Assembly (NCBI RefSeq): GCF_001044255.1
Contig: NZ_JYNX01000034.1
Coordinates: forward strand, 28,103-65,753
From: Mycolicibacterium chubuense
GTDB taxonomy: Bacteria > Actinomycetota > Actinomycetes > Mycobacteriales > Mycobacteriaceae
DNA: 37,651 bases
Reading direction: 5' to 3'
Shown here: positions 26,593 to 30,137 of the stretch, piece after piece
How the letters are laid out: every line of letters starts with the position of its first letter
Numbering within the stretch: the first letter of the stretch is position 1
Made by a program: the position numbers and the translations under genes
Notes under the pieces: generated by a model
What the model saw: only the letters and a program-made list of their open reading frames with translations
What the model was told of the DNA's origin: nothing
Databases searched by the model: none

Positions 26593-26665
26593 GCCCCCGT
26601 AGCTCAGGGGATAGAGCGTCTGCCTCCGGAGCAGAAGGCCGCAGGTTCGAATCCTGCCGGGGGCA
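26593..26665 (+). tRNA. tRNA-Arg (anticodon CCG)
   Basis: The 73-nt cloverleaf folds fully: acceptor GCCCCCG/CGGGGGC, D-arm GCTC...GAGC, anticodon arm TCTGC-CTCCGGA-GCAGA with anticodon CCG (reads CGG), and T-arm GCAGG-TTCGAAT-CCTGC. The discriminator is A; CCA is not encoded. The gene lies between argS and the exported-protein/M50 cluster, so it marks the edge of the conserved block. Confidence 0.97.
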
Positions 26666-26748
26666 CTCTCTTCGAATTCACCACGCCGAGTGTTCGCTTT
26701 GTGACGCGAAACGCGAGTGACGACGTCAGAAACCGTGCGTTCGGCGCG

Positions 26749-29247
26749 TCACGGCGAGCTTGCCGTCCCCCCGTCCGACGCCGTGCCTCCGGACGTGGTG
26801 TCCCCTGACGACGCCGTTCCGGTCGACGGCGAACCGGCCGTCGCCGACGGGTCGACCGTTGCAGTGGGGTCGGACACCACCACGGTCGACGTCGAGTCCG
26901 CCGTCGTCGTCGGCGCCGCGGAGGTCGACGGGGCGGCCGTCTCACTCGGTGACGCTTCGGCGCTGGCGCTGGGTTCCGGAACTCCACTGGTCAGCGTCGC
27001 CACCGGGGTGGCCGACACACTCGGCACCGCGCTGGACGTCGGGGCGGCGGGCGCGGACGTCGTGGCCGCGACCGTGGACGTCGAGAAGGTGCCGGGTTGG
27101 TCCTCTTCGACGATGGCCTTGATCTCGTCGGTGTACGCCTGCAGCTGCGGTTGGATGTCGTCGAGCTTCACCTGGCCCGCCTCGATCTGTTTCTGGAACG
27201 CGCCGACGCGCGCCCACACTTGGTCGATCTTCGCCATCGCCCCGGGCGAGAGCGGCTCGTCGACGGTGATGAACAGCTGCTGCGCCAGCGCGTAGGTCAG
27301 GCAGTTGATGCAGTCGTAGCTCAACGCGCCCGCGAGGTTCTGCGGCGTGGCCACGTTGTCGTTGGTGTCGTCGCCGTCGATGACGAACACCACCTGGTAG
27401 GCCACGGCGACTGCACCGCAATTGCGGCACGACGCATAGGCTTCCGCGTCGTTGATGTTCTCTGCGTAGTCCTCGTCGGTCTGCCACACCAAGGCGAAGG
27501 CTGCCTCGTAGACGACGGTGTTGTTCCGGGTGTTCACGGCCAGCGCCTGATTGTCGCCGGGCCCGGGGGTCAGCGGCTTGTCGACCGGGAACACCCAGCC
27601 CTTGTCGGCCACCGTCGTGACGCCGGCCGGTCCGCCACCGCCGCGCAGGATCCGGGGAATCATGACGACCATCAACCGCGGCTGCCCCGCCGCCGGCAGC
27701 GGCGTACGGGTATCCCACATCACCTGCATCACACCGCGCTGTCCGGGCGCGATCGTCCGCGACGCGGCGATGGGCCGGGTGGGCTCCGACCGCAAGGGTG
27801 GCGTACCGAGACGCTCCATGCCGAGCGCGTAGGCGATGTCACCGACGGTGCCCCGCTCCCACGGCTGGATGGGCCGGTAGTTCGACTCCCCCGGCCACCA
27901 CGCATAGGCGACCCCGCTGGCAATCGCCGCGCCGGCCAGCACGACCAGCACCCGCATCAGCGGCTTGCCCGCCGTGGTCTTCCACGCACCCTGCGCGGTC
28001 TGCCGCACGAACCGGGCCAGCATGTAGAGCACACCGGCCACCGGGATGACGATCGCCACGATCGCCAGGACACGGGCGACGACCTGGATGAAGTCGCCGT
28101 CGGCCCACGAACTGGTGAGCACATCGCGCTGCGTACCCAGGGCCGACCACGCGGAGCCGAGCAGACGGGGCAACGCGAGGATCGCGCCGGCGATGGCGGA
28201 CAGCAGCATCGGCACCACGACCAGCACCCAGACCGTGACAAGGATGCGGGCCCACGGCTTGAGCATGCGCGCGTGCGGGTCACCCCACCGCCACGGCAAC
28301 AGCCCGAGCAGCGTCGGCTTGATCCGCGAGTAGAGGTCGGGGACACCGGTCAGGTCGGCCAGCACGTGGTAGCCGTCGAACCGCACCATCGGCGCGAGCT
28401 GGCGCAGCATCTGCAGGATCTGCGTCGCGACGACGAGCAGCAGCGCGTCGTACCGCAGCCACCACCACAGGCCCGCGATCGCCACCGCGACGATCGCGTT
28501 GAAGTACAGCCCGCCGAGGTCGGTGCGCACCCGGGCCCGTCGACCGAGGCGGTAGGTGTCGGTCACGTCGGTGTAGAACGCCGGCCAGACCAGGTAGACC
28601 CCGAATCCCATGGCGCCCGGCGTGGCGCCGCCGTAGCGCGCTGCGGCGGCATGCCCGAACTCGTGGAAGCCCGCGGACAGGATCGTCACGACGAACACGA
28701 GGATCAGCAGCCCGGGGCGCTCGAACGCGTCGTAGGCGGCGTGCGCCAGACCCTTGCGGAAGAACACCCACCAGCACACGACGGCGAACACTGCGAGTAG
28801 GGGAACGACCATCCATGGCCGGAACAGGAACCGGAAGGGATCGGTGAGCCGGCGGGTGCGGTCGGGTTCGGTCACCGCGTAGCGAAAGCGCAAGCCCAGC
28901 AACGGGTTTCGCTTCTTGGTCGCGGGCTGACTGCCGTCGGGGAGAACCAGCAGACCCAATGGCCGCAACTGCTTGTCGACGAGGTGGCGGATGTTGTCGT
29001 CGGTGACCGTGCGCTCGGTGGCCTCGGACACCGCGGCCGCGACCCCGTCGGCGGTGCGCGCACCGTCGATTTCACGCAGGATCGCGTAGAGCAGCGGCGT
29101 GAGCTGGATCGTCTGGCCGTCGGCGCGCCGGACCAGGGAGGGCGGGACTTTGTAGCCCGATCCCGCCATCTCCCCGATCAGTTCGACGCCGTCCGCCCGC
29201 CGCAGCACCTCCTGCGGAGGCGCCGACCCCTCGCTCGTCACGGTCAC
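26749..29247 (-). CDS. RRE/PqqD-like M50 zinc metalloprotease with exported CxxC domain
   Basis: This 832-aa protein has several parts. Residues 35-105 resemble a PqqD-like RiPP recognition element (LTPLLYAILREIDGARTADG, then DNIRHLVDKQLRPLGLL). A polytopic M50/S2P-type core carries zinc motif HEFGH (195-199) and FDGYHVLAD (290-298) with the third ligand. Transmembrane segments are about 146-163, 178-194, 246-263, 332-357, 389-411 and 431-450. The exported region 452-718 has two CxxC motifs (CRNC 607-610, CINC 646-649) and a putative helical segment. A Ser/Thr/Pro/Ala-rich tail covers 719-832. It resembles proteins annotated as peptide zinc metalloproteases in RiPP-like loci. GTG 29247 follows GAGGAG. 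It lies 41 nt after the 257-aa gene, its likely substrate. What it cleaves or exports is unknown. Confidence 0.82.
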   Translation of the reverse strand: MTVTSEGSAPPQEVLRRADGVELIGEMAGSGYKVPPSLVRRADGQTIQLTPLLYAILREIDGARTADGVAAAVSEATERTVTDDNIRHLVDKQLRPLGLLVLPDGSQPATKKRNPLLGLRFRYAVTEPDRTRRLTDPFRFLFRPWMVVPLLAVFAVVCWWVFFRKGLAHAAYDAFERPGLLILVFVVTILSAGFHEFGHAAAARYGGATPGAMGFGVYLVWPAFYTDVTDTYRLGRRARVRTDLGGLYFNAIVAVAIAGLWWWLRYDALLLVVATQILQMLRQLAPMVRFDGYHVLADLTGVPDLYSRIKPTLLGLLPWRWGDPHARMLKPWARILVTVWVLVVVPMLLSAIAGAILALPRLLGSAWSALGTQRDVLTSSWADGDFIQVVARVLAIVAIVIPVAGVLYMLARFVRQTAQGAWKTTAGKPLMRVLVVLAGAAIASGVAYAWWPGESNYRPIQPWERGTVGDIAYALGMERLGTPPLRSEPTRPIAASRTIAPGQRGVMQVMWDTRTPLPAAGQPRLMVVMIPRILRGGGGPAGVTTVADKGWVFPVDKPLTPGPGDNQALAVNTRNNTVVYEAAFALVWQTDEDYAENINDAEAYASCRNCGAVAVAYQVVFVIDGDDTNDNVATPQNLAGALSYDCINCLTYALAQQLFITVDEPLSPGAMAKIDQVWARVGAFQKQIEAGQVKLDDIQPQLQAYTDEIKAIVEEDQPGTFSTSTVAATTSAPAAPTSSAVPSVSATPVATLTSGVPEPSASAEASPSETAAPSTSAAPTTTADSTSTVVVSDPTATVDPSATAGSPSTGTASSGDTTSGGTASDGGTASSP

Positions 29248-29288
29248 CTGGACACTCCTCGATCGTCGAACCGCGTCAGCGTTGGCCG

Positions 29289-30062
29289 TCAGGCAGCAGA
29301 GCCGGCGCCGCCGCTGGTGCCGGAGGTGCCGCTCGAGGTCGTGCCGGCGCTGCTGGTGGCGCCGTCGGCCGCGCTGCTGGTGCCGCCCTGCGAGATGCTC
29401 GAGGTCTGATCGGAATCCGCGGTTGCGTGGACGTCGTTCATGCTCTGCGTGATGGTGGCGTCCTGGATCGACACCGCGTCCGCTGTCGAATCGACGGAGC
29501 CGATGTTGGCCGCGACGCCGGCATTGATCGGGGCCGCCACGTTCGCGTTGGCCGCGACCGCGCCGGCGATCGGCGCCGCGAGGTCGGCGTTCAGGTCGAC
29601 GTTGACGTCGACGTTGAGAAGCGCGCCGTCGGCAAAGGTTCCGGTGCCGGTGTCGACCGTCGCCCCGGTGTCGGTGCTCGTGTCGGTGCCGGTGTCCGTG
29701 CCGGGGCTGGTCACCGTTCCCGTCGATGTGTCGCCGGCCTGATCGATGCCGCTGTCCTGCAGCGACGTGGCATCGGCGGTCACGTCGTCCATCGACTGCA
29801 TGATCACCACGCCGCCGTCGGCGGAGTGCGTGACCGTGGCGTCCGCACCCGAGCCGTAGGTCAGCACGTTGGCGCCGGCGCCGGCCTGAATGGGCGCGGC
29901 GACATTGAGATTCGCGGCCGCAGACAGGTCGATCGGTGACGCCGCGTCGATCCCGACGTTGATGTCGGCGTTCACGTCGATGATCGACACGACCTCCTTG
30001 TCCGGTAGCGCGATACCAACCTCCGCCTGCAGCTCCTCAGGGGTCAGTCCTTGATTAGCCAT
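29289..30062 (-). CDS. Leader-bearing, internally duplicated Ala/Asp/Thr-rich protein; putative M50 substrate
   Basis: This 257-aa acidic protein has no Cys and no usual signal peptide. The N-terminus MANQGLTPEELQAEVGIALP, then DKEVVSIIDVNADINVG, is short, amphipathic and leader-like. The rest is in two related halves. Half one: NLNVAAPIQAGAGANV and MQSMDDVTADATSLQDSGI. Half two: NANVAAPINAGVAANI and TQSMNDVHATADSDQTSSI. A TDTGTDTSTD-type linker separates them, and the end is Gly/Ser/Thr-rich. ATG 30062 is chosen for the AGGAGAAGGAA Shine-Dalgarno; an in-frame upstream ATG lacks one. I do not recognise the family. Position directly before the RRE-like M50 protease suggests a precursor or exported substrate. 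Confidence 0.78.
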   Translation of the reverse strand: MANQGLTPEELQAEVGIALPDKEVVSIIDVNADINVGIDAASPIDLSAAANLNVAAPIQAGAGANVLTYGSGADATVTHSADGGVVIMQSMDDVTADATSLQDSGIDQAGDTSTGTVTSPGTDTGTDTSTDTGATVDTGTGTFADGALLNVDVNVDLNADLAAPIAGAVAANANVAAPINAGVAANIGSVDSTADAVSIQDATITQSMNDVHATADSDQTSSISQGGTSSAADGATSSAGTTSSGTSGTSGGAGSAA

Positions 30063-30137
30063 GGTTCCTTCTCCTGCGCTCGGCCGCGACCCCACCCTGG
30101 TGATCCGGGGCCATCTGTTCGTGAGCCTGGATGGACT

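Follow-up and report, generated by a model that had tools for sequence, protein, structure and literature searches.

A leader-bearing repeat protein and an RRE-like M50 protease form a conserved gene pair in Mycolicibacterium chubuense and other actinobacteria: a candidate RiPP-like processing and export route

RiPP recognition element (RRE) domains are usually taken as marks of pathways that modify peptides (ribosomally synthesized and post-translationally modified peptides, RiPPs). What, then, is the task of an RRE-like domain that seems to serve only a protease and a protein-sized substrate? This question is raised by a 37,651-nt stretch of Mycolicibacterium chubuense DNA (contig NZ_JYNX01000034.1, positions 28,103 to 65,753, forward strand; hereafter the window). 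On its minus strand an open reading frame (ORF) of 257 amino acids (aa) occupies positions 30062-29289 (stop included) and is followed, after a 41-nt gap, by an 832-aa M50 protease ORF at 29247-26749, the arrangement that an initial annotation had described for a Cys-free protein preceding a zinc protease. We propose that the pair is probably a compact, RiPP-like and apparently enzyme-free processing and export route, in which leader binding and cleavage are joined to some surface role. The ATG at 30062 is preferred over a longer GTG frame to 30158 because of the Shine-Dalgarno-like AGGAGAAGG at 30075-30067; the protease starts with GTG at 29247, has a Shine-Dalgarno GAGGAG at 29260-29255, and is 97% identical to an M. 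chlorophenolicum protein. The upstream gene has the following features.

30067..30075, minus strand: Shine-Dalgarno-like AGGAGAAGG, preceding the 257-aa ORF
29289..30062, minus strand: 257-aa precursor-like protein (stop included); relatives lie directly upstream of the protease
29976..30062, minus strand: predicted leader, residues 1-29, containing GLTPEELQAEVGIALPDKEVVSIID; conserved N-terminal motif, and a leader-only profile finds the upstream ORF at other protease loci
29739..29948, minus strand: repeat module 1, residues 39-108, from sequence comparison of relatives
29388..29621, minus strand: repeat module 2, residues 148-225; second region matched by the N-terminal query, scoring 6.0 bits against the ectodomain profile described below
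29292..29387, minus strand: Ser/Thr/Gly-rich tail, from the alignment

The 257-aa protein has no Cys, and the 234 residues after its leader hold no Lys or Arg, compared with a Lys/Arg content of 8-15% in four neighbouring proteins and the protease. The leader consensus, G-L-T-P-E-E-L...A-L-P-D-K-E-V-V-S, is followed by two modules, each ending A-x-A...Q...I-x-Q, and by the tail, whose last residue is Ala. An N-terminal query also matches the second copy (E 3.2e-5, 53% identity) and the N-terminal motif is conserved in relatives, which bears out the earlier description of a duplicated protein with a leader-like N-terminus. No signal peptide was seen by eye, and hydropathy gave no clear membrane segment (maximum 1.41 over 19 residues). 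Pfam and NCBIfam yielded no family for this protein or the relatives tested, only stray matches below cut-off; a DRY_EERY match of locus L152 was dismissed, as it falls in an Asp/Arg-rich tail. A tblastn search of plasmids gave no match to the 257-aa protein.

The two genes travel together. Within the genus, the protease was found in 14 of 148 genomes and the precursor in exactly these same 14. Precursor N-terminus matches occurred in 29 of 298 genomes drawn from the order and in 18 of 296 drawn from the class (44 genomes, three being shared), and in all 44, the window's own included, the protease lies directly downstream on the same strand; it is cut by a contig end in four (G124, G158, G427, G395) and sits behind a short tandem array in three (G176, G089, G336). 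The idea, raised in the initial annotation, that the 257-aa gene always sits beside the M50 gene is upheld by these genus, order and class counts. In a draw of 396 genomes from the phylum, a short-precursor profile matched 19 and the protease profile 47 at 1e-10; the 17 protease genomes above 360 bits all fall within the 19, and G801, a precursor genome outside the 17, has two weaker proteases next to its precursors. Because the pair is so widely conserved, chance is not its explanation, and these data indicate that it is one real, old unit. In M. pyrenivorans (L013) no precursor was found, and the match to the protease does not start until residue 24; a tRNA-Leu lies downstream of this protease gene (L013:9500-10100). 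A match in G004 was rejected as a low-complexity false positive, neither gene being present in L080.

The leader extends further than the repeat protein does. A hidden Markov model (HMM) of the leader alone (25 positions; one junk row among 85 in training) was used to score all ORFs of at least 40 aa at 11 more distant protease loci (258-337 bits). In nine of the 11, the top ORF lay upstream of the protease on its strand (28.7, 25.1, 23.3, 17.2, 14.3, 13.7, 7.8, 6.7 and 6.0 bits); at five remote M50 control loci the top ORF was upstream in none, and none exceeded 3.0 bits. The cores behind these leaders are two-Cys and chaplin-like (L157-L159, L195), His/Gly- or Gly-rich (L192), hydrophobic (L190, L191, L196, L197), or basic and then Tyr/Pro-rich (L193); the chaplin family PF03777 is touched by L159 alone (E 0.03, below cut-off). 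These data indicate that homologous proteases adjoin small predicted ORFs having only the leader in common, an observation that is new here. At L192:4514-5911 (G458, a 6.1 Mb genome) the RRE-M50 protease is preceded by three ORFs with the leader, which contain two Cys and are His/Gly- or Gly-rich, and very short hydrophobic peptides directly precede or overlap such proteases at L190:757-1157, L196:6050-6310 and L197:3364-3552.

This sharing bears on the possibility that the precursor simply belongs to the surface or cell wall and is exported by other means, with the protease merely trimming it or releasing it from the membrane in the manner of a site-2 protease. M50 proteases classically cut membrane-bound substrates, and the Ser/Thr-rich tails of both proteins could extend into the envelope. 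The precursor, however, has neither a signal peptide visible by eye nor a clear membrane segment, and its leader is common to unrelated cores beside related proteases; we regard this explanation as quite improbable.

Loci with short precursors extend the comparison. At L078, L079, L122 and L143-L152 the same leader stands before short ORFs arranged in tandem, two to four per locus. They are mostly 64-92 aa long with one module (some listed ORFs are too long, as their mechanical start was set too early), 35 of the 39 short rows have a core of 42 or 43 residues, and L150 and L152 also carry two-module intermediates. In place of the 257-aa protein, then, other actinobacteria have two to four short predicted tandem peptides with the same leader and repeat, which is likewise new here. 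In a tree of 79 protease cores, the 52 long-type sequences form one group (support 95/100), with type labels set by us, L013 counted as long despite having no precursor, and L006, L012, L060 and L121 left out as duplicates or fragments. This grouping fits a single fusion or duplication event, although the tree is midpoint-rooted and its direction not proven. The scarcity of positive charge is common to both types: no Lys or Arg follows the leader in 35 of 54 long rows and 36 of 39 short rows, in tables that include spurious ORFs (the source of much of the 461 Lys/Arg in one table's long class) and artefacts in two of the 39 short rows and the mis-started L115. Small basic ORFs without a leader and with a repeat-like stretch precede the short precursors or protease at L144:1804-2064, L145:8328-8555, L198:8263-8520, L078:8577-8777, L079:5217-5417 and L122:7680-7883. 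Frames after the operon at L078:5039-5419 and L079:2703-3653 end in a membrane segment and RERIVERPV repeats.

The protease itself is a predicted three-part protein.

26749..29247, minus strand: 832-aa RRE-M50-ectodomain protein (stop included), from the ORF, family matches and Shine-Dalgarno
28918..29196, minus strand: RRE/PqqD-like domain, residues 18-110, from NF041824 (from residue 37), the model, Foldseek and Pfam PqqD in relatives
27892..28836, minus strand: membrane protease core, residues 138-452, from hydropathy and the NF041824 and NF058609 matches
28651..28665, minus strand: HEFGH zinc motif, residues 195-199, invariant in a 10-member alignment
28366..28377, minus strand: DGYH, residues 291-294, with the presumed third zinc ligand Asp291; DGYH invariant in the 10-member alignment, DGY in another
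27178..27603, minus strand: CxxC domain, residues 549-690, presumed extracellular, from profiles and relatives
27418..27429, minus strand: first CxxC, Cys607-Cys610, from the sequence
27301..27312, minus strand: second CxxC, Cys646-Cys649, in the unit aligning to the substrate repeat, from profile comparison
26752..27105, minus strand: Ser/Thr/Pro-rich C-terminal tail, from the sequence

Does the protease N-terminus resemble a leader-binding domain? The predicted model is b3-a3 (strands 22-26, 37-40 and 46-49; helices 51-59, 66-77 and 83-94), with block pLDDT (predicted local distance difference test) values of 71-76 for residues 51-110 but 47-59 for the strand part, 21-50. Among the 50 Foldseek matches listed, the highest probability (0.98) went to TbiB1 with its leader peptide, a lasso-peptide RRE (5v1u_B; TM-score 0.66 on the target, sixth by E-value). 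Pfam PqqD matches this region in five of 14 relatives (best E 0.0014), and a PDB sequence search with the RRE placed the PqqD entry 3g2b at E 0.44, below unrelated chains. The PqqD/RRE-like domain of the initial annotation is thus supported by the fold model, Foldseek, the daptide-protease profile and the relatives' Pfam matches; the call rests on these because the window's region, taken alone, has no Pfam match. Residues 18-110 look like an RRE. According to passages of the RRE-Finder paper (PMC7470986), RREs bind leaders on behalf of modifying proteins and can be confused with helix-turn-helix domains. The conservation of the leader argues against mere DNA binding by the domain found here.

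HExxH and DGY are invariant in the aligned relatives, and Asp291 is presumably a zinc ligand, as in family M50. The NCBIfam daptide-protease profile NF041824 matches residues 37-306 (E 1.7e-29, 103.1 bits against a cut-off of 300), and NF058609, the YydH/LiaK/EpeP profile of epipeptide systems, matches residues 180-304 (E 1.7e-11, 44.2 bits against 225). By hydropathy, six or seven segments are predicted ahead of residue 452. PDB sequence searches with the whole protease and with the ectodomain returned chance-like matches only.

The C-terminal CxxC domain distinguishes this protease. Across 70 loci it is fused to the protease in 52, a separate gene in eight and absent in 10, in a count that includes two genomes twice (L006/L076, L012/L050) and, among the eight, L150, which is in fact a precursor match. 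Where it is absent, the sequence runs out at a contig edge in L060, L061, L117, L121, L144, L147 and L149; only 0.8 kb remains in L152, and L198 has the domain on another contig (L148). Stand-alone ectodomains of L145, L146, L151 and G590 open with Sec-like signals (by eye), which is chiefly why the domain is placed outside the cell. The ectodomain occurs in 15 of 266 phylum genomes, 13 of which belong to the 19 precursor-profile genomes; in G411, also one of the 15, the end of a precursor looks repeat-like by eye, and the locus L194 of this genome carries the ectodomain at 45 bits. Near ten loci whose precursors are without the repeat the ectodomain was not found, in a reading where some of the contigs measure only 4-6 kb.

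One unit of this domain resembles the substrate, a likeness that is new here and that the initial annotation did not mention. Aligned to the repeat with hhalign, the second CxxC unit scored 24.8 (7 short rows) and 20.25 (96 rows), compared with maxima of 15.6 and 13.6, respectively, in 60 column shuffles each; the common pattern is P-x-N-x-A-x-A-x-N-x-x-[S/C]-x-x-[S/C]...A-x-A-x-Q. A profile built from CxxC segments, without precursors, was searched against 7,763 ORFs with 59 true members set aside, and its further matches were precursors for the best 45 and for 59 of the best 60. On cores, it reached at least 11 bits in 50 of 92 real sequences versus 0 of 1,840 shuffled ones, and at least 8 bits in 60 of 92 versus 6 of 1,840; reversed cores never did. 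The precursor profile in turn matches the lone ectodomain of G627 (E 3.1e-5). That ORF (L227:7170-7778) has two CxxC motifs and is possibly a relic. Common descent and convergence are not distinguishable on some 25 columns.

These features also bear on whether the protease releases antagonistic, membrane-active peptides, un- or lightly modified as in daptide- or epipeptide-like systems, with the ectodomain protecting the producer. Most membrane-active peptides differ in charge from the cores found here, which are nearly free of Lys/Arg and rich in Asp/Glu. The closest curated families are indeed the daptide and epipeptide proteases, and several paralogous precursors per locus recall MpaA1-A3 (passages of PMC10036551). 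Against this, the ectodomain is substrate-like and part of the protease polypeptide, and no modifying or immunity gene appears in the window or among the commonest neighbours; we consider such an antagonistic role unlikely.

The neighbourhood was screened for further components. tRNA-Arg and argS adjoin the operon, followed by a lysA-type decarboxylase, homoserine dehydrogenase, a PALP enzyme, a GHMP kinase and rho, with a release factor and ATP synthase genes further along. Thirty other window ORFs, several of them alternative frames, were scored with Pfam; 17 had matches (F-type ATP synthase subunits, glycosyl transferase family 4, release factor, cobalamin adenosyltransferase, TetR, rho, GHMP kinase, PALP enzyme, homoserine dehydrogenase, decarboxylase, argS, acyl-CoA dehydrogenase, TrkA channel and luciferase-like monooxygenase) and 13 had none. 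Among these 30 there was no RiPP enzyme, ABC exporter, radical SAM enzyme or epimerase, nor any of the daptide enzymes MpaB, C, D and M. Likewise, the 23 commonest ORF clusters of 64 loci held no additional conserved modifying, immunity or exporter gene, in a clustering blind to genes in fewer than nine further loci or under 100 aa. The earlier remark that no modifying enzyme or ABC exporter is nearby agrees with both surveys. The tRNA-Arg (CCG) lies at window positions 26593-26666, between the operon and argS, and tRNA genes also occur near some relatives' loci. A fixed insertion site at tRNA-Arg/argS was rejected, as argS falls inside the fetched stretch in three of nine named loci (L006, L009, L012) and outside in six; L076 and L050 duplicate the genomes of L006 and L012, respectively.

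A modifying enzyme could instead be encoded elsewhere in the genome, making this a conventional RiPP pathway. RRE domains normally serve modifying enzymes (passages of PMC7470986), and unlinked enzymes are possible, no search having been made for them. The cores, however, are repetitive and without Cys, and no further gene emerged from the 64-locus clustering, so that we hold this to be very improbable.

We therefore return to the pair as a self-contained route and propose how it may work. The precursor would be made without a recognisable Sec signal, and its leader (LTPEEL...ALPDKE) would dock on the protease's RRE in the cytoplasm. Cleavage at the zinc site within the membrane would take off the leader, and the Lys/Arg-free repeat region would move to the outer face, either through the protease or by a housekeeping route. 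There the CxxC domain, which in one unit is patterned like the substrate repeat, would bind the product and either anchor it or seed a surface coat or fibre. What can be read from the sequences themselves is that the two genes form a conserved pair, together with the leader, the RRE-like fold, the motifs of the protease and the substrate-like domain. From them, binding of the leader by the RRE appears very likely and its cleavage by the protease likely; that export occurs with this protease's help is slightly favoured, and assembly on the ectodomain is suggested tentatively, as a somewhat doubtful last step.

Several observations weigh against this proposal. We know of no experiment on the system. 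Three of the nine top leader matches are weak (6.0-7.8 bits), the leader ORF of L196 ranks second behind an unrelated ORF of 11.7 bits, and that of L197 was missed by the HMM, an LPSRRL-like ORF being seen there by eye. In G590, where the precursors sit at the edge of a contig, no protease was found; G738 has precursors and protease on separate contigs, and G800 and G618 have them on opposite strands. For the RRE, beyond the missing Pfam match of the window's own region, the Foldseek E-value for 5v1u_B is 0.43, and the winged-helix family PKMT_2nd outscored PqqD (E 0.00021 in one relative versus 0.0014 for the best PqqD). The model of protease residues 1-720 is poor outside the RRE (mean pLDDT 44.5), and, because six or seven segments are predicted, hydropathy leaves the side of the C-terminal part unsettled. 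The predicted precursor structure shows no fold (mean pLDDT 38.1), and no curlin or other fibre family was found among the precursors tested with Pfam. As for the ectodomain, hhalign did not align its first CxxC unit with the repeat, the window's own precursor scores just 6.0 bits with its profile, L079 is without it, and in G627, which has it, the 15 kb read show no precursor and no protease.

A broader reading, speculative and on the whole unlikely, is that of an actinobacterial secretion route apart from Sec, Tat and ABC systems, in which the RRE-protease would pick any polypeptide with an LPDKE/LPERE leader and export it. Cores would be interchangeable (repeat proteins, two-Cys chaplin-like, His/Gly-rich or hydrophobic peptides), and in the repeat branch the protease would carry its own substrate-like nucleator, one protein capturing, cutting, exporting and seeding a fibre. 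Already the narrower proposal for the pair, if right, would widen the role of leaders and RREs from chemistry to protein delivery and make M50-protease export, as suggested for EpeP, testable; it offers a candidate surface-assembly system in mycobacteria and other actinobacteria. The matches listed in our literature searches, whose coverage mostly excludes subscription papers, held no published description of the system.

Among known systems, curli (CsgA/CsgB) and chaplins offer a surface nucleator related to its subunit, and they use the Sec route. The nucleator idea is alike here, as is the weak chaplin match of L159 (PF03777, E 0.03); unlike curli, the precursors tested have no curlin Pfam match, and fibre formation is conjectural. 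A curlin-like resemblance was seen by eye, without Pfam support, and is kept purely as an analogy.

Closer parallels lie among M50 proteases that act on ribosomal peptides. According to passages of PMC10885120, the pearlin enzymes TglG/TmoG are membrane M50 proteases of this kind, and EpeX is presumed to be both cut and exported by EpeP. TglG/TmoG differ in releasing modified C-terminal amino acids, a distinction drawn from their description rather than from sequence. The epipeptide proteases YydH/LiaK/EpeP (NF058609) have the M50 core in common with the window protease, which differs in its score (44.2 of 225 bits), in its RRE and in having no radical SAM enzyme in the window. The daptide protease MpaP/DapP (NF041824) comes nearest, with an N-terminal RRE fused to an intramembrane M50 protease; passages of PMC10036551 state that daptide leaders are removed, RRE-dependently, by an intramembrane peptidase. 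The window protease departs from it in score (103.1 of 300 bits), in the absence of daptide enzymes from the window, in its large repeat substrate and in its substrate-like ectodomain, and daptide precursors have a C-terminal Thr whereas the window precursor ends in Ala. Because their enzymes were not seen and the profile cut-offs failed, the pair is neither a daptide nor an epipeptide system. It has an N-terminal RRE-like domain (weak by Pfam alone), HExxH and presumed Asp zinc ligands in membrane segments and a leader-bearing gene at the locus, and in the broad sense it appears to work like an RRE-fused M50 leader protease of the daptide type. We view it as a variant of that kind, made new by its substrate-like ectodomain and by a repeat substrate the size of a protein.

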